Source: Rhizobiales bacterium Ga0077530 (GTDB lineage: Bacteria; Pseudomonadota; Alphaproteobacteria; Rhizobiales; Hyphomicrobiaceae). Taken from it: a DNA stretch of 40,865 bases. How positions within the stretch are numbered: position 1 is the stretch's first letter; each line of letters begins with the position of its first letter. Position numbers and translations under genes: made by a program. The notes below the pieces were generated by a model that searched no databases, had not been told where the DNA came from, and saw only the letters and a list, made by a program, of their open reading frames with translations. The stretch lies in the NCBI GenBank assembly GCA_001464855.1, contig LNEA01000030.1, positions 1 to 40,865 of the forward strand, read 5' to 3'. Shown here one piece after another: positions 25,631-39,892 of the stretch.

Positions 25631-25675
25631 TGGAGCGGGCGATCGGGATTGAACCGACGACATTCAGCTTGGGAA
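25631..25675 (-). other. 3' fragment of tRNA-Gly(CCC), attachment site of the integrated element
   Basis: On the minus strand, 45 nt read as the 3' end of a glycine tRNA: anticodon loop TTCCCAA (anticodon CCC), right half of the anticodon stem GCTGA, T-arm GTCGGTTCAATCCCGAT, acceptor strand CGCCCGC, discriminator T and encoded CCA. Upstream of the anticodon loop the sequence no longer fits a tRNA: the left anticodon strand, D-arm and 5' acceptor strand are missing. A tRNA 3' end beside an integrase is the classic mark of an att site. The 3' end points away from the integrase, so the intact tRNA should be at the far, right end of the element. Confidence 0.75.
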
Positions 25676-25851
25676 TAACAGTGTCTATCTACGCGCAAAT
25701 ACCCAACCTCACTTAAAATCAATGCTTTACCCCAACTCGACTACGCGCCTATTCGCGGCAAAACTACCCATTTCGCCATAAAATGTCCCCTATGAGTCCC
25801 CTAGATTTGTGGCGATTGATTCTCGACACGCATTGCAGGGGCCATTGCACC

Positions 25852-27135
25852 ATGAAGACTTCGACCAAGAGCATCACCACCCGGATCGTAGATAGCCTTC
25901 CCGCCGATACCGAGGTCCGTGATTCGCAATTGCGCGGCTTTGGCATACGTCGCCAGAAAAGCGCGGACGTTTCCTACTTCGTCCAACGACGGGTACGAGG
26001 CCGCATGCGCCGGTTCACCATCGGCAGGCACGGAAGCCCCTGGACAACGACAACCGCCCGCGAGGAAGCCTCCAGGTTGCTGCTACTCATGCGGGCCGGA
26101 GGAAACCCTGCTGTCGAACGCGCAGCCGCCCGCGCCCGACAAATGACCTTTCAGGAGCTCACAGAGCAATTCCTTGAGATCCATGGCCCGACGTTGAAGG
26201 CTTCGACCCTCGTCACCTACACCGACTGCATCGAGTTGCGTCTGCGCCCGAAGTTTGGCAGCAAGCCTATCAATGAAATTACCCACATGGATGTAGCGAA
26301 GGCGCACGTCTCGTGGCGGGAGCACAAGACCGCCGCTAACAACGCGCTCACTTGCCTCTCGTCGATATTCGGCTGGGCGGAGGACCAGAAACTCCTGCCC
26401 AAACACACCAATCCGTGCCCAGACATCAAACGCTACAAGACGTCAAAGAAGGAGCGCTACCTTTCGCGCGATGAGCTGAGACGACTCGGCGTTACGCTCG
26501 ACTCTTGGGAAGCAAACGGCAAGATCAACATCTATGCCGCTTATGCCATCCGACTGCTTATCGTGACCGGCGCGCGCCTCAGTGAGATCCTCACCCTGCA
26601 GTGGTCCAACGTCCATTGGGAACACAGGGTTCTTCAGCTGCCGGATAGCAAGACGGGCTTCAAATACATCTTCCTCAACGACTATGCCTTGGCAGTCCTC
26701 AAGAGCATCCCGCGCATTGCGAGAAACCCCTACGTCATCGCTGGCAAGAAAGAAGGCCGCCACTTCGTCGGCCTCACCAAGATCTGGTACGCGTTGCGCG
26801 CAGAGGCCGGCCTCGACGACGTACGCATTCATGACCTCAGGCACTCGTTTGCATCGTTTGCGATTACGCTAGGTGGCTCCAACATCCCCATACTCGGCCG
26901 GGTACTCGGCCACTCCAACCCCGAAACCACCGCCCGCTATACCCACATCGCCAAAGACCCTGCCGCTGCGATCGCCGACGCGACGGGACGGGAATTGGCG
27001 CTGATCATGAATCGCGACTTCCGGCTTCCGAGAGCGCGTCCCATCTACGTCGTCCGCTCTACGGTCGCTCAGCACGTTTCAAAAGCCCGGGTAAGGCGCA
27101 AGCCATTGCGCATCGCGACCACGCTCAATGTCTGA
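25852..27135 (+). CDS. int: Tyrosine recombinase / phage-type integrase
   Basis: A site-specific recombinase of 427 residues from the ATG at 25852. A start at 25783 would add 23 residues without a ribosome site. The arm-binding N-terminus (SITTRIVDSLPADTEVRDSQLRGFGIRR) is like that of P4-type integrases. The core-binding domain covers about residues 95-185. The catalytic domain has Arg in VTGARLSEIL, His-x-x-Arg in IHDLRHSFAS, the second His in GRVLGHSNPETT and the Tyr nucleophile in TARYTHI. It lies 176 bp from the tRNA-Gly fragment and should insert and excise the element at that tRNA gene. Confidence 0.92.
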   Translation: MKTSTKSITTRIVDSLPADTEVRDSQLRGFGIRRQKSADVSYFVQRRVRGRMRRFTIGRHGSPWTTTTAREEASRLLLLMRAGGNPAVERAAARARQMTFQELTEQFLEIHGPTLKASTLVTYTDCIELRLRPKFGSKPINEITHMDVAKAHVSWREHKTAANNALTCLSSIFGWAEDQKLLPKHTNPCPDIKRYKTSKKERYLSRDELRRLGVTLDSWEANGKINIYAAYAIRLLIVTGARLSEILTLQWSNVHWEHRVLQLPDSKTGFKYIFLNDYALAVLKSIPRIARNPYVIAGKKEGRHFVGLTKIWYALRAEAGLDDVRIHDLRHSFASFAITLGGSNIPILGRVLGHSNPETTARYTHIAKDPAAAIADATGRELALIMNRDFRLPRARPIYVVRSTVAQHVSKARVRRKPLRIATTLNV

Positions 27136-27178: not shown

Positions 27179-27550
27179 TCACCACCACGAAGAGTAGAAC
27201 ACCGTGTCGCCGTTCGCGATAGCCTCGCGGGCTTTGGCGATGAAATCCATGTCGTCGTCATACTCGCTTTGATCACCAAATGAGGTGCCGAAGAAGGGAC
27301 CGTGTGTCTCGGGAAGGCGGCGGGCTTTCAAGGTGAGCTCGAGCACGTCCAGGTCATAGGCGGTAAGCATCAGCGTTGCGCAGTTGAAGTCGTCATCCTG
27401 ACCGCCTTTGGCGCGGTAGAGCCGTTGCATCCAGCCGTGTAGATTGGGGTGCTTGCGCCACTCGTGGATCTGCCTGCAGTCGCTTGGTTCGAAGTCCGTT
27501 GGCGTGCTTGGGACGCTGCTGGTGGTGAAGGCGTACATATCGAGGCCCAT
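27179..27550 (-). CDS. Conserved plasmid-type hypothetical protein (MGLDMYAF family)
   Basis: A 123-residue protein starting MGLDMYAFTTSSV and continuing with QIHEWRKHPNLHGWMQRLYRAKGG and ETHGPFFGTSFGDQSEYDDDMDFIAKAREAI. I recognise the MGLDMYA start from small hypothetical proteins common on alphaproteobacterial plasmids and integrative elements; no function is known to me. The frame is open upstream, but the ATG at 27550 marks where the conserved sequence begins. Its leader (CAAACCAAACGAAAGCA) resembles those of other genes in this block. It is the last gene of the block, separated from the methyltransferase gene by 272 bp that hold no gene. Confidence 0.7.
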   Translation of the reverse strand: MGLDMYAFTTSSVPSTPTDFEPSDCRQIHEWRKHPNLHGWMQRLYRAKGGQDDDFNCATLMLTAYDLDVLELTLKARRLPETHGPFFGTSFGDQSEYDDDMDFIAKAREAIANGDTVFYSSWW

Positions 27551-27561
27551 GGTGAGTGCTT

Positions 27562-27731
27562 TCGTTTGGTTTGCGTTTTGTCCTCCCGGACGCGGTACGC
27601 ACGCACGCAGGCGGGGCCTCAGCGTCAATGGCCAACACGGGCGCGAAGCGCTGGCGCGGGCAGGCGGTTGACGCAGGGGTGCCTGAGGGCAGTCTCCGCA
27701 GATCCGTTGGAGGCAAATCCAAACCAAACGA
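27562..27731. repeat. 12-bp inverted repeat bounding the spacer before the last small gene
   Basis: TCGTTTGGTTTG at 27562-27573 and CAAACCAAACGA at 27720-27731 are perfect inverted copies 146 bp apart. The left arm coincides with the leader of the 123-residue gene. The enclosed spacer has no recognisable gene. The arms could mark a leader duplicated in inverted orientation or a small excisable or rearranged segment. Confidence 0.4.
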
Positions 27732-27822
27732 GTGCGCCGGCGCGTGGTCCCTGATGACAGCCAGTAACCTGGCAATGAGCTGCATCGCCACTCGGCCTTC
27801 ACGCAAGCGAGCCGCACGATCA

Positions 27823-28551
27823 CTACGCCGCGCAGTCCCCAGACTTAGTCGGGTCCGCCCGTGTCGAGAGCCAGGCGAACCGCGTCGCGCGCTTTTCGTC
27901 GTGGTTCCAAACCACCCAGCAATAGCGCTGTTTTGCAATTGTAGTCGTGGCCTGTGCCGGATCGCCGCTCGGCCAGCAGACACATTCGTCGAGCGCATAG
28001 ATGATCGACGGCGGATGAGCCAGGAAGAACGCGTGGCGACGTGGATGACAAAGGCTGTTGATGTTGAGCAGCATGGCGACTTTGCCACTGGATTTGGCAG
28101 TGAGATGCAATGCGTGTTTCACGAACGCATCACCCAAACCTCGGCCGTACGGTGGATTGGTCACGATGTGCTTGGCGAGTGCCAGTCGCTCTCCGAGAAA
28201 GTCGCGGCCAGGCTCACCGTATCCGTGGTCGACCAGATCGGTGGAAACGACCGAATGGCCGGCCTCTAGAAGCACCTTCGAGATGTGACCTTCGCCACAA
28301 GCGGGTTCCCAGATCGAGCCCTCAAAGCACTCGACAGCCAGTAGCGCACGCGTGGCCTCAGGTGGTGTCGGATAGAACTCGTAGGGCGCCCGACCAGGGC
28401 TTATGCGAGGACCGAACCGGAAGGCCCGTGCGGTTTCTGCAATCAGGTTGGTGGTCCGGACCTCGTTCGGACGAAGCAAACGCATTCTGGCGGGCGCTGG
28501 CGCAGCCTCGGGAGGCTTTAATTCGCGTGGATGGATCAGTCGGAGGCTCAT
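27823..28551 (-). CDS. Orphan adenine-type DNA methyltransferase-like protein
   Basis: A 242-residue protein. After a variable N-terminus it has YEFYPTPPEATRALLAVE, then motif I WEPACGEGHISKVL for S-adenosylmethionine, STDLVDHGYG, and motif IV TNPPYGRG, the catalytic signature of N6-adenine/N4-cytosine amino-methyltransferases. No restriction enzyme or target-recognition domain is adjacent. Such short orphan enzymes on mobile elements often guard against host restriction or mark element DNA; that role is inferred here. Its start overlaps the stop of the preceding 92-residue gene (ATGA), so it is translated as part of the small-gene block. Confidence 0.75.
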   Translation of the reverse strand: MSLRLIHPRELKPPEAAPAPARMRLLRPNEVRTTNLIAETARAFRFGPRISPGRAPYEFYPTPPEATRALLAVECFEGSIWEPACGEGHISKVLLEAGHSVVSTDLVDHGYGEPGRDFLGERLALAKHIVTNPPYGRGLGDAFVKHALHLTAKSSGKVAMLLNINSLCHPRRHAFFLAHPPSIIYALDECVCWPSGDPAQATTTIAKQRYCWVVWNHDEKRATRFAWLSTRADPTKSGDCAA

Positions 28552-28826
28552 GGGATGTTGCTTTCGCTTGTTTGTGACTCACCACCGATGAGGATGGTGA
28601 CGGTTGGAAGAACATCGATGCTGTCTTCATCGGTTTGCTCGAGATGCCAGTGACCGATGGCGCACGCGACAAGCTTCAGGAAATCGAGCCTCTCGCGTTG
28701 GGCGTAGTGCCCAAGATTCGCGATCAGGTCCGCAATGGCTTCCTCAGGAAGATGCGAACCTGCGATGTCGGCGTAGAGGTCGACGCAGGCGTCGGCCCAT
28801 AGGGCGCGCTGGCGGTTGGTCGTCAT
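28548..28826 (-). CDS. Hypothetical protein, 92 residues, in overlapping gene block
   Basis: The product starts MTTNRQRALWADACVDLYAD and is predicted mostly helical (AIADLIANLGHYAQRERLDFLKLVACAIGHWHLE). I do not recognise the family. The frame is supported by tight coupling: its ATG overlaps the stop of the upstream 106-residue gene and its stop overlaps the ATG of the methyltransferase gene, both as ATGA. The overlaps suggest equal, co-translational synthesis with its neighbours. Confidence 0.65.
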   Translation of the reverse strand: MTTNRQRALWADACVDLYADIAGSHLPEEAIADLIANLGHYAQRERLDFLKLVACAIGHWHLEQTDEDSIDVLPTVTILIGGESQTSESNIP

Positions 28827-29143
28827 ATCAGGACCTCCTTTCGCGGGAACTTCTCGTCGAGAAGCCTCACGATCTTGCGTGGCAAGTATTTGCGTGGATT
28901 GTCATAGCCACGCTGCGCCTGCGGTGAGATGAGCTCGCGACCGTCCCTCGCAATCTCGATGATGATGTCGTTGTGGCAGCCCCAGCTGAAGCTGCGCACA
29001 TCGTATCCAGCGGTCTCAAGCACCGACACAACCTCGTGGGTCATGTAAGCGCTGGCTCCGTCGCCAAATCCGAACTTGTCGAAAGCCTCTTCCCAGTTCC
29101 AGTGGAGGGTTCCACCGCACGCAAGGCATTTAGATTGAGGCAT
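28823..29143 (-). CDS. Hypothetical protein with N-terminal CxxC, 106 residues
   Basis: Begins MPQSKCLACGGTLHWNWEEAF. The CLAC pair looks like half of a zinc-binding knuckle, but no second pair is obvious, so metal binding is uncertain. The middle part (YMTHEVVSVLETAGYDVRSFSWGCHNDIIIEI) and the C-terminus (NPRKYLPRKIVRLLDEKFP) have normal protein composition. It overlaps the preceding gene by 14 bp and the following one by 4 bp. Its leader reads AAAACCAAAGAAAGCAG. The family is unknown to me. Confidence 0.65.
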   Translation of the reverse strand: MPQSKCLACGGTLHWNWEEAFDKFGFGDGASAYMTHEVVSVLETAGYDVRSFSWGCHNDIIIEIARDGRELISPQAQRGYDNPRKYLPRKIVRLLDEKFPRKEVLI

Positions 29144-29354
29144 GGCCGCTGCTTTCTTTGGTTTTGATGCGGCATACCTCGAGGATTTCGAAGTGACCTG
29201 TGCCTAGCGCTCTGATGCGAGGTTCTGTGCGACCTCTGTGCAGATAGAGATCGCTTGCAAGCTCCCCGGCTTCGCGGGCGTCAATGGCGTCGACGTCGAT
29301 TGCGTAGATGCAGATCTCCTGAAGCGTCACCTCGTAAGGTCGGCGGCGGCTCAT
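29130..29354 (-). CDS. Hypothetical protein, 74 residues, in overlapping gene block
   Basis: The start at 29354 (MSRRRPYEVTLQEICIYAID) is chosen because it overlaps the stop of the upstream 56-residue gene as ATGA, matching the style of the block; a start four codons earlier is possible. The product contains DAREAGELASDLYLHRGRTE and RIRALGTGHFEILEVCRI. I do not recognise it. No membrane segment or signal is visible. Confidence 0.6.
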   Translation of the reverse strand: MSRRRPYEVTLQEICIYAIDVDAIDAREAGELASDLYLHRGRTEPRIRALGTGHFEILEVCRIKTKESSGHASI

Positions 29355-29521
29355 GATGGATTGCATTCATTGTCGTCCCACGTGTAGGCGGGGTTGTCGT
29401 CGTAGTGATCGCTTGCGAACCAGGCATCGAGGATGTCGTCGAGGTCCGCCTCCGCCACTCCCTGGATAGGGAAGGGGCAGAGGCTTGCGACCACCGCGCG
29501 TTCTGCTGGGGTGAGCTTCAT
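29351..29521 (-). CDS. Small hypothetical protein, 56 residues
   Basis: A short frame from ATG 29521 to TGA 29351. It gives an acidic protein: MKLTPAERAVVASLCPFP, then ADLDDILDAWFASDHYDD, ending ECNPS. The ATG overlaps the TGA of the upstream 72-residue gene (TGATG) and its own TGA overlaps the next ATG (ATGA). Two tight junctions and the acidic, ordered composition make a real gene likely despite its size. Function unknown. Confidence 0.6.
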   Translation of the reverse strand: MKLTPAERAVVASLCPFPIQGVAEADLDDILDAWFASDHYDDNPAYTWDDNECNPS

Positions 29522-29739
29522 CAGCGGCTCTCCCCTTGGGCGGGTTTGTCTTTGCGGATGCGGATGACGAGGCGTCCGTCGCTGCCGACCGGCACGAACT
29601 CGAGCGCGAGGTTCAGGCCCTGACCGTCTTCGTGCAACCAGGCGGCTCCGACCTTGGTCCAGTAGGCGCTCTTGCCTTCACCGCGGACGTGAAGCACGTC
29701 GTGGGTTGGCTTGCGGTTGGTGGTTTCTTGGTTTGCCAT
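29521..29739 (-). CDS. Conserved plasmid-type hypothetical protein, 72 residues, first gene of the block
   Basis: The ATG at 29739 is preferred over one at 29769 because AGGAG lies 9 bp upstream. The product contains THDVLHVRGEGKSAYWTKVG and AAWLHEDGQGLNLALEFVPV, then GRLVIRIRKDK. The pattern of a GEG followed by YWTKVGAAW and a final GRLVIR resembles small uncharacterised proteins common on rhizobial plasmids. Function is unknown. As the first gene it probably follows the promoter of the seven-gene block, in the 29740-29960 region. Confidence 0.65.
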   Translation of the reverse strand: MANQETTNRKPTHDVLHVRGEGKSAYWTKVGAAWLHEDGQGLNLALEFVPVGSDGRLVIRIRKDKPAQGESR

Positions 29740-30238
29740 TGTGGCTGTCTCCTTTGGTTTCGAGGCCACATCTGTTGCGGCCTGTCGGGGACAAAGGGAG
29801 CCATCGGCTATGAGGAGACAGAACAGAGGGGAGGGGCCTCACCCGGCTGCACAAGCGCACGCGCGGAAGCTGGGGACACCCCTTGGACGGGCTCCGCCGT
29901 GGCTCATCTTCCCCGATTGATTGGACGCACAGCGTGTTTGGCATTGGCCAAACGGTGACGCCCTACAAAACAAGATCACGAACCTGCCGAGCTACACGCT
30001 GCTGCTTGTCAGTCCGGTATTGGACACGCGCTCACTGGTCCGTCGGCGAGCCGGTCCGCTGGAAGAGCTTTGAACTAGAGTTTGCATGAGCGTGCAGCTC
30101 GCGCGGGCCGACGATGTCGCTTTATGTGTTGCGCGAATGGGCTCGCATGGAGTGAATGAATCTATTTGCAAAGAGAGGCGGCATTGATGCTGACGAGTAT
30201 TTCCATTATAAAGCGGTATTATAACGGAAGACATTGAC
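29740..30238. promoter_or_regulatory. Divergent promoter region between the small-gene block and a plus-strand unit
   Basis: About 500 bp. A perfect inverted repeat GTTTGGC-ATTG-GCCAAAC at 29936-29953 is a plausible operator for the minus-strand block. On the plus strand a good promoter lies at 30184-30212. A 33-codon frame from ATG 30088 is not convincing. The region is noticeably more AT-rich towards its right end. Confidence 0.4.
30184..30212 (+). promoter_or_regulatory. Sigma-70-type promoter for the 30239 gene
   Basis: TTGATG (-35, 30184-30189), a 17-bp spacer, then TATAAA (-10, 30207-30212). The match is 4/6 and 5/6 to the consensus. Transcription would start near 30219, followed by GGAAG at the right distance from the GTG start at 30239. 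Confidence 0.5.
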
Positions 30239-31116: not shown

Positions 31117-32316
31117 TTGTTTATTCGACGCTCCCTTCAAGATGCCCTGCTAAATTTTGGCAGCAAGTTTCCCATTATTCTAGTGACGGGCGCTCGCCAA
31201 GTCGGGAAATCCACCCTGCTTCGCCACGCCATTCATGACGCGGAATACGTCACTCTCGATGACCCCGAAGACCGCCAGCAGGCCCAAAAGGAGCCCAAGC
31301 TGTTCCTCTCCCGCTTCAAGGGACGGACCATCATTGACGAGGTGCAGTACGCCCCCGAATTGTTCCCCCTGCTCAAGATGCGGGTCGATGAGGAACAACG
31401 GATGGGCCAGTTCTGGCTTAGCGGCTCACAGCAATTTCATATGATGAAGAACGTCACAGAATCGCTTGCCGGCAGGGTGGCAATCCTTGGCTTGGCCGGA
31501 CTGTCGACGCGGGAATTGCTAGGGGAGCCCGATGCGCTTCCGTTGGAGCAACGGCTTTCAACAACCGTCAAAGCGCTGCCGTTGGGTGAGGTCTTTGAGC
31601 GAGTCTGGCGGGGCAGTTACCCTGCTCTGCACGATGGGCGAGGCCTTACTCCGGAAGAATTCTATCCGGCGTACGTCCAAACGTATCTTCAGCGAGATGT
31701 GCGTGACCTTGCTCGGGTGGGCGATGAAAGCGCCTTCCTGCTGTTCATGCAGCTGGTGGCAGCACGCACGGGCCAGCTGCTGAATTCGAGTGAGATTGCC
31801 AATGAGGCGGACATTTCCATCACGACCGTTCGGAATTGGCTGTCTATCCTCCAGGCGTCCGGTATCGTGGCCTTTGTCGACCCCTATCACAGCAACCGCA
31901 CAAGCCGGCTGGTCAAGACCAAGAAGCTGTACTTTCTCGATACCGGCCTCGCCGCCTGGCTTGGCGGCTGGAAGACAGCGGAAGCTCTCGCGCGCGGCGC
32001 GGCTGCCGGCGCCTTCCTCGAGACTTACGTTGTGAGCGAGGTGATGAAGGGAAGTTTCAATCGTGGTCAGCAGCCGGAATTCACGTTCTTCCGCGATCAC
32101 AACGACCGCGAAGTGGATATCCTGTCGATTGGCAGCAATACCCTTGTGCCCATGGAAGTGAAAACGACGTCCCGCCCCGACGGTCGGACGGCACGGCGTC
32201 TGTTGTTGGGCGAAAGCCTCAAGCTTGAACAAGGGCAAGGCGCCATCGTCTGCATGGTCGACAAGATCTATCCCCTCTCGGAGAAGGTCAACGCCTACCC
32301 GGTGGGGATGGTCTAA
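31117..32316 (+). CDS. AAA-type ATP-binding protein with DUF4143 domain
   Basis: A 399-residue protein. The N-terminal ATPase domain has Walker A VTGARQVGKSTLLRH (about residues 23-37), Walker B TIIDEVQYAPEL and sensor-1 LSGSQQF. A winged-helix-like part follows (LLNSSEIANEADISITTVRNWLSIL), then a DUF4143/nuclease-like C-terminus with FLETYVVSEV, EVDILSIG and VPMEVKTT, a D...ExK pattern like PD-(D/E)XK folds. Such proteins are widespread in bacteria and archaea and poorly understood; links to genome defence or mobile elements are suspected. The start must be TTG 31117, because a TGA at 31102 closes the frame upstream. It stands alone, with AT-rich DNA on its 5' side. Confidence 0.85.
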   Translation: MFIRRSLQDALLNFGSKFPIILVTGARQVGKSTLLRHAIHDAEYVTLDDPEDRQQAQKEPKLFLSRFKGRTIIDEVQYAPELFPLLKMRVDEEQRMGQFWLSGSQQFHMMKNVTESLAGRVAILGLAGLSTRELLGEPDALPLEQRLSTTVKALPLGEVFERVWRGSYPALHDGRGLTPEEFYPAYVQTYLQRDVRDLARVGDESAFLLFMQLVAARTGQLLNSSEIANEADISITTVRNWLSILQASGIVAFVDPYHSNRTSRLVKTKKLYFLDTGLAAWLGGWKTAEALARGAAAGAFLETYVVSEVMKGSFNRGQQPEFTFFRDHNDREVDILSIGSNTLVPMEVKTTSRPDGRTARRLLLGESLKLEQGQGAIVCMVDKIYPLSEKVNAYPVGMV

Positions 32317-37520: not shown

Positions 37521-38504
37521 TCACGCAATGAGGTTCATGATCAAGCGGATGATCTGGTCCTTCTGACGGGGTTCGCTTTGAGCTGTGAGCAGTGCGAGGG
37601 CCACCAACGAAGCGTCCGTCATGCGGCGATTGAGCCCTTGGCGAGCAAGGTAGCTCACAAACAGAAAGCTGCCGATCCGTTTGTTGCCGTCCGCAAACGG
37701 GTGATCTTTGATCACGAAGTACAACAGGTGCGCGGCCCGATTCTCGACAGTGGGATAGAGTGCCTTGCCGCCAAACGACTGGTTCAAGCCTTCGAGAATG
37801 CCGTCGAGCTGCTCTCCGCGCTCTAGGCCGAACAAATCCGTGGCACTGCCGGCGGCAAGCAAGCTGCGCTTCAAGGCGGAGATGGCTTTGCGAGCTTTGG
37901 AAGGCGAAAGGTTCGCGGGACGCCTCGCGGCCGTGGGAGGCTGCGTCAGCGTTCCTTCATCGTAGGCGAGCAACAATTGCCAGCTGCGCGCGTACGTTTG
38001 AACGATTTCAAGAATCGCGCGGCCTTCGTCCGAGACAAGACCTTGCGCCGAAAGTGTCGTGCTCAGGAGGTCTATGGCGGATTGGAGCTCGGCTACACCA
38101 CGCGTCTCAAGGCGGTGGGCGTTGAGCGAGTAGCCCTTCAGAAGATGATCGCGAAGGACGCTGTTCGCCCAGATGCGGAACTGTGTCCCGCGCTTGGAAT
38201 TGATGCGGTAGCCAACGGAGAGGATAGCGTCGAGATTGAAGTACTCGATACTACGGGAGACTCTGCGTCCGCCTTCGCTTTGAACTGTTGCATATTTTGC
38301 AACTGTTGAGATGCGCGCCAGCTCTTTGGTTCGGTAGATGTTTGAGAGATGGCGGGAGACGACGGATTTATCGCGGCGAAAGAGGTCAGCAATCTGTTGG
38401 AGTGATAACCAAACGGAGTCGGCTTCCAGTCGAACTTCAAGGGCGAACGTGCCATCGGCCTTGAAGATGGCGACGTCGGAGGAGGGCGGCTTGGTTGTTG
38501 GCAC
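37521..38504 (-). CDS. RhuM-type protein with Fic/Doc-like C-terminal domain
   Basis: A 327-residue protein. The N-terminal half is the RhuM/virulence-protein region with a KilA-N/HTH-like start (VWLSLQQIADLFRRDKSVVSRHLSNIY) and the hallmark SRSIEYFNLDAILSVGYRIN. The C-terminal half carries a Fic-superfamily motif, HPFADGNKRIGSFLF (His near residue 268). Here NKR replaces the usual NGR, as in Doc-type enzymes that phosphorylate rather than AMPylate their target. Proteins of this layout occur on phages, plasmids and islands, often with toxin-like roles. No separate antitoxin gene is next to it. The gene lies between two direct repeats. Confidence 0.85.
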   Translation of the reverse strand: MPTTKPPSSDVAIFKADGTFALEVRLEADSVWLSLQQIADLFRRDKSVVSRHLSNIYRTKELARISTVAKYATVQSEGGRRVSRSIEYFNLDAILSVGYRINSKRGTQFRIWANSVLRDHLLKGYSLNAHRLETRGVAELQSAIDLLSTTLSAQGLVSDEGRAILEIVQTYARSWQLLLAYDEGTLTQPPTAARRPANLSPSKARKAISALKRSLLAAGSATDLFGLERGEQLDGILEGLNQSFGGKALYPTVENRAAHLLYFVIKDHPFADGNKRIGSFLFVSYLARQGLNRRMTDASLVALALLTAQSEPRQKDQIIRLIMNLIA

Positions 38505-38705: not shown

Positions 38706-39593
38706 TCATCCGGAGGGCTGACGCGCGAGAAGGTAGGCGACCGCTTCCTGTGCGCGGGCAGCAGCAGTGAAGATGGCTTTCTTGTCAGCTTTCAGGACGG
38801 CGAGCCAATGCGCGATGTACTGCGCATGATCGGCGCGGGGCTGCGCGCTGAACCCTAAGTGCGCCATCAGCATGGCGCTGCCGAGCTCGGCTACGAGCTC
38901 CTCCACGCAGTAGGCATCGTCGCCGAAGCGTTTACCGAGCTGGCGGTTGCAGCGCTTCTCGACTCCGGTGGCGTGTGTCGCCTCGTGGAGGACCACGCTG
39001 TACCAGTCGTCGGCACGTTCGGTCTCGGTACGACCGTCGAAGAGACGCTCGTCAGGCATGTGGATCGTGTCGGTGCTGGGGCGATAGTAGGCTTGGTCGC
39101 CGCCGACCAGGATCGGCACACCGATGTATGCTAGGAACGCTTCAGCTTCGAGGCGTTTGGCAATGAACGGGCGCTCTGGAACTTCCGGCAGATCATAGCC
39201 GTCGACCTGAGCGACATTGAAGACCCATGAGGCCTTGGCGACGCGGCGCTGACCATCGTCGTTGTTGTCGTCGGGATTGGGATCCACCTCGTAGGCTTTG
39301 TAGAAGATGACGAGCGCGGCCTTCGCGCCTTTGCGGACCTGAGCACCGAGCTCCTGCCATTGGCGGTAGGTGGCCCAGAGCGAGACGGGATAGTCGGCGA
39401 CCTGCGCCTCGGCCCAGAGGCTCAGGATGTTGATGCCGTTGTAGGCGTGCTTTGTGTAGGCGTTCTTCGGTAGCAAGGTCGACAGTCCAGCACGCTGCCA
39501 GGGCAGGCGGGCTTTGCCCACACCGGCTTCTATAGCGGCAACAATCTTGTCGGTGACGGCCTGGTGAACGTCGATGGCGGGACGGTTGGTCAT
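38706..39593 (-). CDS. ardC: ArdC-type antirestriction protein with zincin-like metallopeptidase domain
   Basis: A 295-residue protein. The N-terminal ssDNA-binding-like domain (about residues 8-130) has the typical NAYTKHAYNGINILSLW, LWATYRQWQELGAQVRKG and ASWVFNVAQVDG. The C-terminal metallopeptidase domain has HEATH at 203-207 in VVLHEATHATG and a later Glu in EELVAELGSAML. ArdC proteins ride on conjugative elements and protect incoming single-stranded DNA from host restriction. Its presence argues that the element moves by conjugation even though no transfer genes are in view. Upstream lies a strong hairpin. Confidence 0.9.
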   Translation of the reverse strand: MTNRPAIDVHQAVTDKIVAAIEAGVGKARLPWQRAGLSTLLPKNAYTKHAYNGINILSLWAEAQVADYPVSLWATYRQWQELGAQVRKGAKAALVIFYKAYEVDPNPDDNNDDGQRRVAKASWVFNVAQVDGYDLPEVPERPFIAKRLEAEAFLAYIGVPILVGGDQAYYRPSTDTIHMPDERLFDGRTETERADDWYSVVLHEATHATGVEKRCNRQLGKRFGDDAYCVEELVAELGSAMLMAHLGFSAQPRADHAQYIAHWLAVLKADKKAIFTAAARAQEAVAYLLARQPSG

Positions 39594-39892
39594 GGCACGA
39601 GCTCCGTTGGTTCACGGCCGGCCTCCAATGGCCGGCTCGTGCGCCGTCAGAACCCGAGGGCGGGAAGGGCCCCGCACCCGCAGGGCGCGCGCAAGCGCGA
39701 GGGCTTGCCCCTTGCGGGATACCCGCACCGGGTTAGGCGCAGAAATTCGAGCCGGGCAGGGGAGGGTGGGAAGCGCACCGGAAGCACCTGGCCAGTGGCC
39801 AACGTCGCGCGTCGTTCGCGGCCGCGCGATGAGTGCTGCAGAGAAGAGCAGGAGGACTTACGCCGCGTGTCGAACGGCGTAACAATCGGCGC
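39594..39892. other. GC-rich structured region upstream of ardC
   Basis: About 300 bp with no gene recognised but dense in palindromes: GCCGGCC/GGCCGGC near 39620-39645, the large hairpin at 39677-39718, and GCGGG-ATA-CCCGC at 39714-39726. It must hold the ardC promoter. Confidence 0.4.
39677..39718. ncRNA. Long stem-loop upstream of ardC (possible RNA element, oriT or terminator)
   Basis: The arms pair as CCCGCA/TGCGGG, GGG/CCC and GCAAGC/GCTTGC around a 6-nt loop (GCGAGG), 15 base pairs in all with one 5-nt bulge (39686-39690) and one 1-nt bulge. There is no T-run on either side. The type label is tentative: the pairing is seen, while transcription and role are not. Confidence 0.4.

Follow-up and report, generated by a model that had tools for sequence, protein, structure and literature searches.

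A conserved structured RNA leader ahead of a six-gene methyltransferase operon on an integrative element of Hyphomicrobiaceae

A structured RNA leader of about 205 nt stands directly ahead of six overlapping genes on an integrative element of a Hyphomicrobiaceae bacterium, and leaders of the same type precede ardC and DUF736 genes elsewhere. The leader may represent a new and widespread class of cis-regulatory RNA for establishment or anti-restriction operons (those with ardC, DUF736 or DUF736-like genes, and the methyltransferase operon described here) on alphaproteobacterial elements, a proposal to which we give about an even chance. The six coupled genes are somewhat more probably than not an operon for establishment (anti-restriction), carried by an integrative and probably mobilisable element in tRNA-Gly(CCC). 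The block itself resembles known arrangements, and the leader is the more surprising part. A preliminary description of this DNA, which dealt with a block of seven genes, contains neither the attachment site of the element nor the leader, its most notable feature. The window, that is, the whole stretch of 40,865 nucleotides that was analysed, is contig LNEA01000030.1 of a fragmented genome in 747 contigs. Its relatives are Hyphomicrobiaceae, referred to below as the family. The following features are discussed.

25631 to 25675, no strand assigned: attachment-site half at the left edge of the element, a 45-bp copy of the 3' half of tRNA-Gly(CCC)
25783 to 27135, plus strand: tyrosine integrase of the element (Pfam Phage_integrase, 2.5e-21; Arm-DNA-bind_3, 6.6e-08)
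27179 to 27550, minus strand: 123-aa gene (MGLDMYAF...), a separate unit with homologues in six other genomes of the family
27823 to 28551, minus strand: methyltransferase, an M.TaqI-like catalytic domain without recognition domain, as judged by motifs, PHROG 799 and fold
28548 to 28826, minus strand: 92-aa acidic protein, phrog_3963-like (1.1e-05; pN/pS about 0.45)
28823 to 29143, minus strand: 106-aa protein, companion of the methyltransferase, with an N-terminal CxxC and an invariant H-N
29130 to 29354, minus strand: DpnD/PcfM-like small protein (start at 29354 or 29366) with PF14207 relatives
29351 to 29521, minus strand: 56-aa acidic protein with homologues in other elements
29521 to 29739, minus strand: 72-aa product of the first gene of the operon, DUF736-like by weak PF05284 matches of its relatives
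29740 to 29945, minus strand: structured RNA leader of the operon, about 205 nt, recognised by fold z and covariation, without an Rfam match
38706 to 39593, minus strand: ArdC-type anti-restriction protein of the same element (Pfam ArdcN, 8.5e-34; MPTase-PolyVal, 7.5e-46)
39594 to 39772, minus strand: putative diverged leader copy that runs up to the start codon of ardC (15.3 bits, E 0.007)

The six genes run on the minus strand from 29739 to 27823 and overlap, in order, by 1, 4, 14, 4, and 4 bp. The first gene (29521-29739) and the second (29351-29521) have 1 bp in common (TGATG), and the second and third (start 29354) have 4 bp (ATGA). The third (end 29130) shares 14 bp with the fourth (28823-29143), the fourth shares 4 bp with the fifth (28548-28826), and the fifth shares 4 bp with the methyltransferase (27823-28551). 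The sixth junction is a gap of 272 nt from the methyltransferase stop to the 123-aa gene (27179-27550). Reading of the sequence thus confirms the earlier statement that five of the six junctions overlap by 1-14 bp. The single coupled unit of seven genes proposed there holds for six; the seventh is separated by the gap and is mostly found away from the block. Four-base overlaps are the usual layout within bacterial operons. Therefore, they are evidence for one operon but not for a fixed protein ratio. Nor are the six genes a fixed machine, since members are lost, swapped, or duplicated among elements.

Homologues exist for all seven reading frames of the block. In the closest comparison pN/pS is below 1 for every gene (range 0.04 to 0.46, with a single distant homologue used for the 123-aa gene), so that the small frames are under purifying selection. 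Among more distant pairs, the smallest proteins give values near or slightly above 1, where the alignments are short and uncertain. The 56-residue gene, described earlier as easily missed, is real: it has homologues in other elements, and pN/pS is 0.33 and 0.39 for the two nearest.

The leader is kept in seven distinct elements, each time directly ahead of the operon, and many of its columns are invariant. Its RNA fold is more stable than that of shuffled sequences by 3.0 standard deviations (z -3.0). RNAalifold gives 45 pairs, nine of which are changed on both sides. With 14 sequences, two-sided changes are found in 20 of the 45 pairs compared with 9.8 in shuffles (0 of 500), and the covariation score is 0.237 compared with 0.098 for shuffled alignments and 0.04-0.06 for slid controls. 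With 34 distinct sequences, the number of such pairs is 36 of 45 (0 of 500 shuffles); note that the later leader alignments were fitted to a covariance model. The leader matches none of the covariance models of Rfam 15, and no description of it was found in the literature searched, which covered few subscription journals. It is a candidate for a new RNA family. The alternative of a conserved upstream peptide was rejected as unlikely, one-base indels being present even between close copies.

Within the family, the leader is found in only 12 of 103 genomes, and no copy was found with most relatives of the operon. A covariance model recovers further copies in the family, four before DUF736-like genes and one before a relative of the 56-aa gene. 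One more copy precedes an apparent insertion sequence (by eye). At one locus (L196, 2249-2438, minus strand), a second leader copy lies about 1.7 kb from the first and is followed by an apparent insertion sequence. When a second leader model was searched against 377 genomes of the order and 385 of the class, matches were found in other families. The end of the model is no more than 5 nt from a start codon in 22 of the 27 further genome matches examined, one of the 27 being apparently a duplicate of a sequence from which the model was built (L203 and L004). The genes after those 22 leaders are DUF736-like (14), DUF736 (three, two of them named by eye), ardC (two), and unknown (three); the Pfam check covered one ardC and one DUF736 gene. 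With the ribosome-binding stretch as part of the model, some of the agreement with start codons is a foregone result, whereas the kind of gene that follows is not.

When the part of the window that belongs to the element was scanned without filters, the stretch before ardC (39594-39772) was the sole other match with E < 0.05. The corresponding position before the ardC of a congener gives no significant match (3.8 bits), and the copy before the ardC of the window is therefore suggestive only. Parts of the leader are found more widely. Its central stem occurs in 13 plasmid records; in Sphingobium pTK2 it lies 104 nt upstream of ardC, and elsewhere it precedes other genes. Its last hairpin, together with the ribosome-binding site and ATG, occurs in 49 contigs of a viral collection, mostly before DUF3489-type genes, as assigned by a Pfam check of two viral contigs. 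In these contigs (L235-L283) the hairpin GGCCGCRAYRGNYGYGGCC is followed by GGAG and ATG. They are at most candidate members of the RNA family of the leader.

The last gene of the operon encodes a protein that matches PHROG 799 (DNA methyltransferase) at 1.9e-48. Its motifs are in the order X-I-IV (TPPE, EPACGEG, and NPPYG), as in M.TaqI, and are invariant or nearly so; N132, P133, and P134 are unchanged across 50 sequences. By these motifs, it is a predicted N6-adenine DNA methyltransferase of the gamma class. The predicted structure (pLDDT 84.6) aligns with M.TaqI over 160 residues (Z 15.9, rmsd 2.4), and METTL5, an rRNA methyltransferase, is nearly as good a fold match (Z 15.5). DNA modification, proposed earlier for the block, is supported as far as the type of the enzyme is concerned (DNA m6A), with DNA as the presumed substrate, since the fold is common to rRNA methyltransferases such as METTL5. 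The catalytic domain fold and the X-I-IV order with NPPY are shared with M.TaqI, a gamma-class enzyme. Unlike M.TaqI, the window protein, 242 aa in all, has no target-recognition domain: the M.TaqI alignment ends at its residue 225, and the 242-aa model has no further folded domain. No restriction family is found in the block or in the neighbours scanned. In PADLOC, the match of the methyltransferase to mad2 is marginal, with nothing else for it, and the small proteins of the block have no match. M.EcoGIX protects plasmid DNA on entry (PMC7736820). The window protein is like M.EcoGIX and M.BceJIII, which make m6A on single strands (PMC7736820), in being a mobile-element enzyme with no known restriction partner, probably of m6A type and with a proposed role in DNA protection, a likeness by description.

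The 106-aa family is associated with this methyltransferase. In the bacterial family, 20 of its 23 matches lie within about 1.1 kb of a methyltransferase match. Its distribution is narrow: the gene is present in 4 of 347 genomes drawn from the order, all four in Hyphomicrobiaceae. The AlphaFold model of the protein (pLDDT 77.9) has no confident match in a fold search (best Z 4.0). From the METTL5-TRMT112 fold match of the methyltransferase and the CxxC motif, one might guess that the 106-aa protein is a Trm112-like activator of the methyltransferase. The 92-aa and 56-aa proteins each have a net charge of -10. For the third gene, five members of a mixed set that includes its family match PF14207 (DpnD/PcfM; best 6.4e-05), and the protein of the window is below the cut-off of this family (13.7 bits vs 25, E 0.064).

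Nine members of the mixed set match PF05284 (DUF736) weakly (best E 0.019); the 72-aa protein of the window itself has no match to PF05284 and does not reach the Pfam cut-off. It is 97% and 89% identical to its counterparts in the two nearest elements. DUF736 genes are carried by all Mesorhizobium ICEs of one large class (PMC8627217). The first gene of the operon is like these rhizobial genes in being DUF736-like, and true DUF736 genes bear the same type of leader. The differences are that the window protein is below the Pfam cut-off and that a leader goes unmentioned in the part of PMC8627217 consulted.

From its left edge, the element consists of the 45-bp tRNA-Gly(CCC) half, the integrase, and then the block. 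The 45-bp copy matches at 100% the intact tRNA-Gly, which this genome has on a different contig (G000:C291:5399-5473, L164). In the congener G024, the 45-bp repeat (one difference) is found at 278528 and 329875 of one contig, and a complete element of about 51 kb lies between the two. Within these repeats are an integrase (80% DNA identity), the block module, ardC, and an AAA/DUF4143 ATPase; a diacylglycerol-kinase-like gene is outside the repeats in G024 and outside the element in the window genome alike. In the congener G026, the repeat occurs twice, 84 kb apart on one contig, and G025 has it only once, as an empty site would. The element is an integrative one, with an integrase and attachment repeats. 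The repeats, the integrase, the complete copy in G024, and the single site in G025 indicate that the block is cargo at one end of it. Carriage of the block by a mobile element, as the preliminary description had it, is borne out by the integrase and the 45-bp attachment repeat.

The window contains only part of its own element. The complete copy in G024 encodes two relaxases, a T4SS coupling protein, and a UmuC-type polymerase (Pfam, with part of its genes scanned), and the element is probably mobilisable. By megablast, the region has no match among phages and matches plasmids in ardC-like DNA only. A RhuM/Fic-type gene (37521-38504, minus strand) and the AAA/DUF4143 ATPase gene (31117-32316, plus strand) of the element match PDC-S23 and PDC-S01, candidate models for defence in PADLOC. 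G024 has, between integrase and module (G024:C8, about 280786-289510; L112, 786-9510), radical-SAM-like and glycosyltransferase-like cargo (by eye) that is absent from the window.

In the establishment reading, the operon would be expressed on entry of the element into a new cell. The bare M.TaqI-type catalytic domain would methylate adenines of the element, perhaps on a single strand, and host restriction enzymes would thereby be blocked; the small proteins may help the methyltransferase or counter other defences. The leader RNA would fold between promoter and start codon and set the amount or timing of translation of the operon. Its control of the first gene would spread to the overlapping genes through translational coupling. 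Given leaders of this type before ardC and DUF736 genes elsewhere, the operons probably share one signal or binding protein. Feedback on the leader by the DUF736-like protein would be a guess, and one weakened by the leader copies that precede the 56-aa gene instead. An anti-restriction role in establishment is described for the ardC of R388 (PMC7213743). The anti-defence role suggested earlier for the block fits the presence of ardC in the element and of the same leader type before ardC elsewhere. If the leader is such a class, many separate alphaproteobacterial mobile elements use one RNA-based switch; the timing of anti-restriction in newly arrived elements is known mainly from enterobacterial plasmids. 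The shared leader would also be a handle for finding further counter-defence genes by the leader alone. The methyltransferase and its narrow 106-aa partner form a second testable unit.

The methyltransferase might instead mark the DNA of the element to time its replication, excision, or expression, with the small genes as maintenance regulators. ParA and a small partner are encoded within the element of the window, parA and its partner directly follow the methyltransferase at another locus (L118), and the DUF736 genes of the Mesorhizobium ICEs mentioned above are in keeping with such a role. This alternative is nevertheless unlikely, as ardC is in the same element and the leader is found before ardC elsewhere.

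In plasmid leading regions, orphan methyltransferases count among the most prominent functions (PMC11541004). The anti-defence islands of these regions resemble the present element in combining an orphan methyltransferase (here an apparent orphan), an anti-restriction protein, and many small uncharacterised genes, and in both cases structured regulatory sequences are found upstream of genes. Here, however, the element is an integrated one of Hyphomicrobiaceae, the protein families are others, and the leader has no Frpo-like hexamers. In the G024 element, the operon does not adjoin the relaxase genes; a leading-region position is therefore unsupported. The position of the leader ahead of what are probably anti-defence genes agrees with the model of PMC11541004, in which it would be a single-stranded DNA promoter (Frpo-like), the hairpin of the entering strand being read by RNA polymerase to give early expression, and the sequence is able to fold as DNA. 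Such a promoter is, however, quite improbable. A sigma-70 consensus scan finds no -35/-10 pair in the leader, the fold z as DNA is only -1.4 compared with -3.0 as RNA, and the ribosome-binding site marks the end of the structure. G-U cells also outnumber A-C cells (68 vs 28), though the alignment favours G-U. On the IncN plasmid pKM101, CUP elements precede ard genes. There too, one conserved upstream element is found before several anti-restriction genes, but here it is a covarying RNA fold that ends at the ribosome-binding site, and the likeness is one of arrangement.

The gene families of the block are found together, all oriented alike, in many elements, and this holds for at least one further family of the order as well. 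The full order (DUF736-like, 56-aa, DpnD-like, 106-aa, 92-aa, and methyltransferase) is present in G024 (L112/L003), is rearranged at L115 and L119, and is reduced elsewhere. The constant gene order expected of the proposed system is thus kept in the congener and partly reshuffled in other elements. Methyltransferase relatives are found in 39 of 103 genomes of the family, and many relatives retain the methyltransferase and one or two companions only. A second copy of the module in the same genome, beside tRNA-Ala (L111), is without the 92-aa gene. Between the two copies, dS is about 0.3-0.5 for four genes compared with 2.0 for the methyltransferase. The partner genes are replaceable, which counts against a tight machine. 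That the block is cargo without a shared function, gathered by chance at a hot spot of integration, as its mosaic order, frequent gene loss, and the unequal divergence of neighbouring genes might suggest, is very improbable, given that the same families recur in one orientation in these many elements and beyond the family and that a single leader heads the operon.

The operon recurs near the tRNA side of islands that sit in many different tRNA genes. At all 16 distinct relative loci, the first tRNA downstream lies on the opposite strand, 16 bp to 9.5 kb away, so that its 3' end faces the operon. These tRNAs are Ala, Phe, Arg, Gly, Ser, Leu, and Tyr. At L111, L114, L117, L119, L115, and others, relatives of the operon stop 16 to 180 bp short of the 3' ends of unrelated tRNAs, which in every case lie on the opposite strand.

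The 123-aa gene is outside the coupled unit. A homologue is near the methyltransferase in one of the six other genomes; the homologues are mostly elsewhere. The protein has a weak match to phrog_7971 (E 0.0099). The region upstream of the gene folds slightly better than expected (z -1.7). In the window this is the gap at 27551-27822 (minus strand), and several relatives of the 123-aa gene have hairpin-rich upstream regions of other types.
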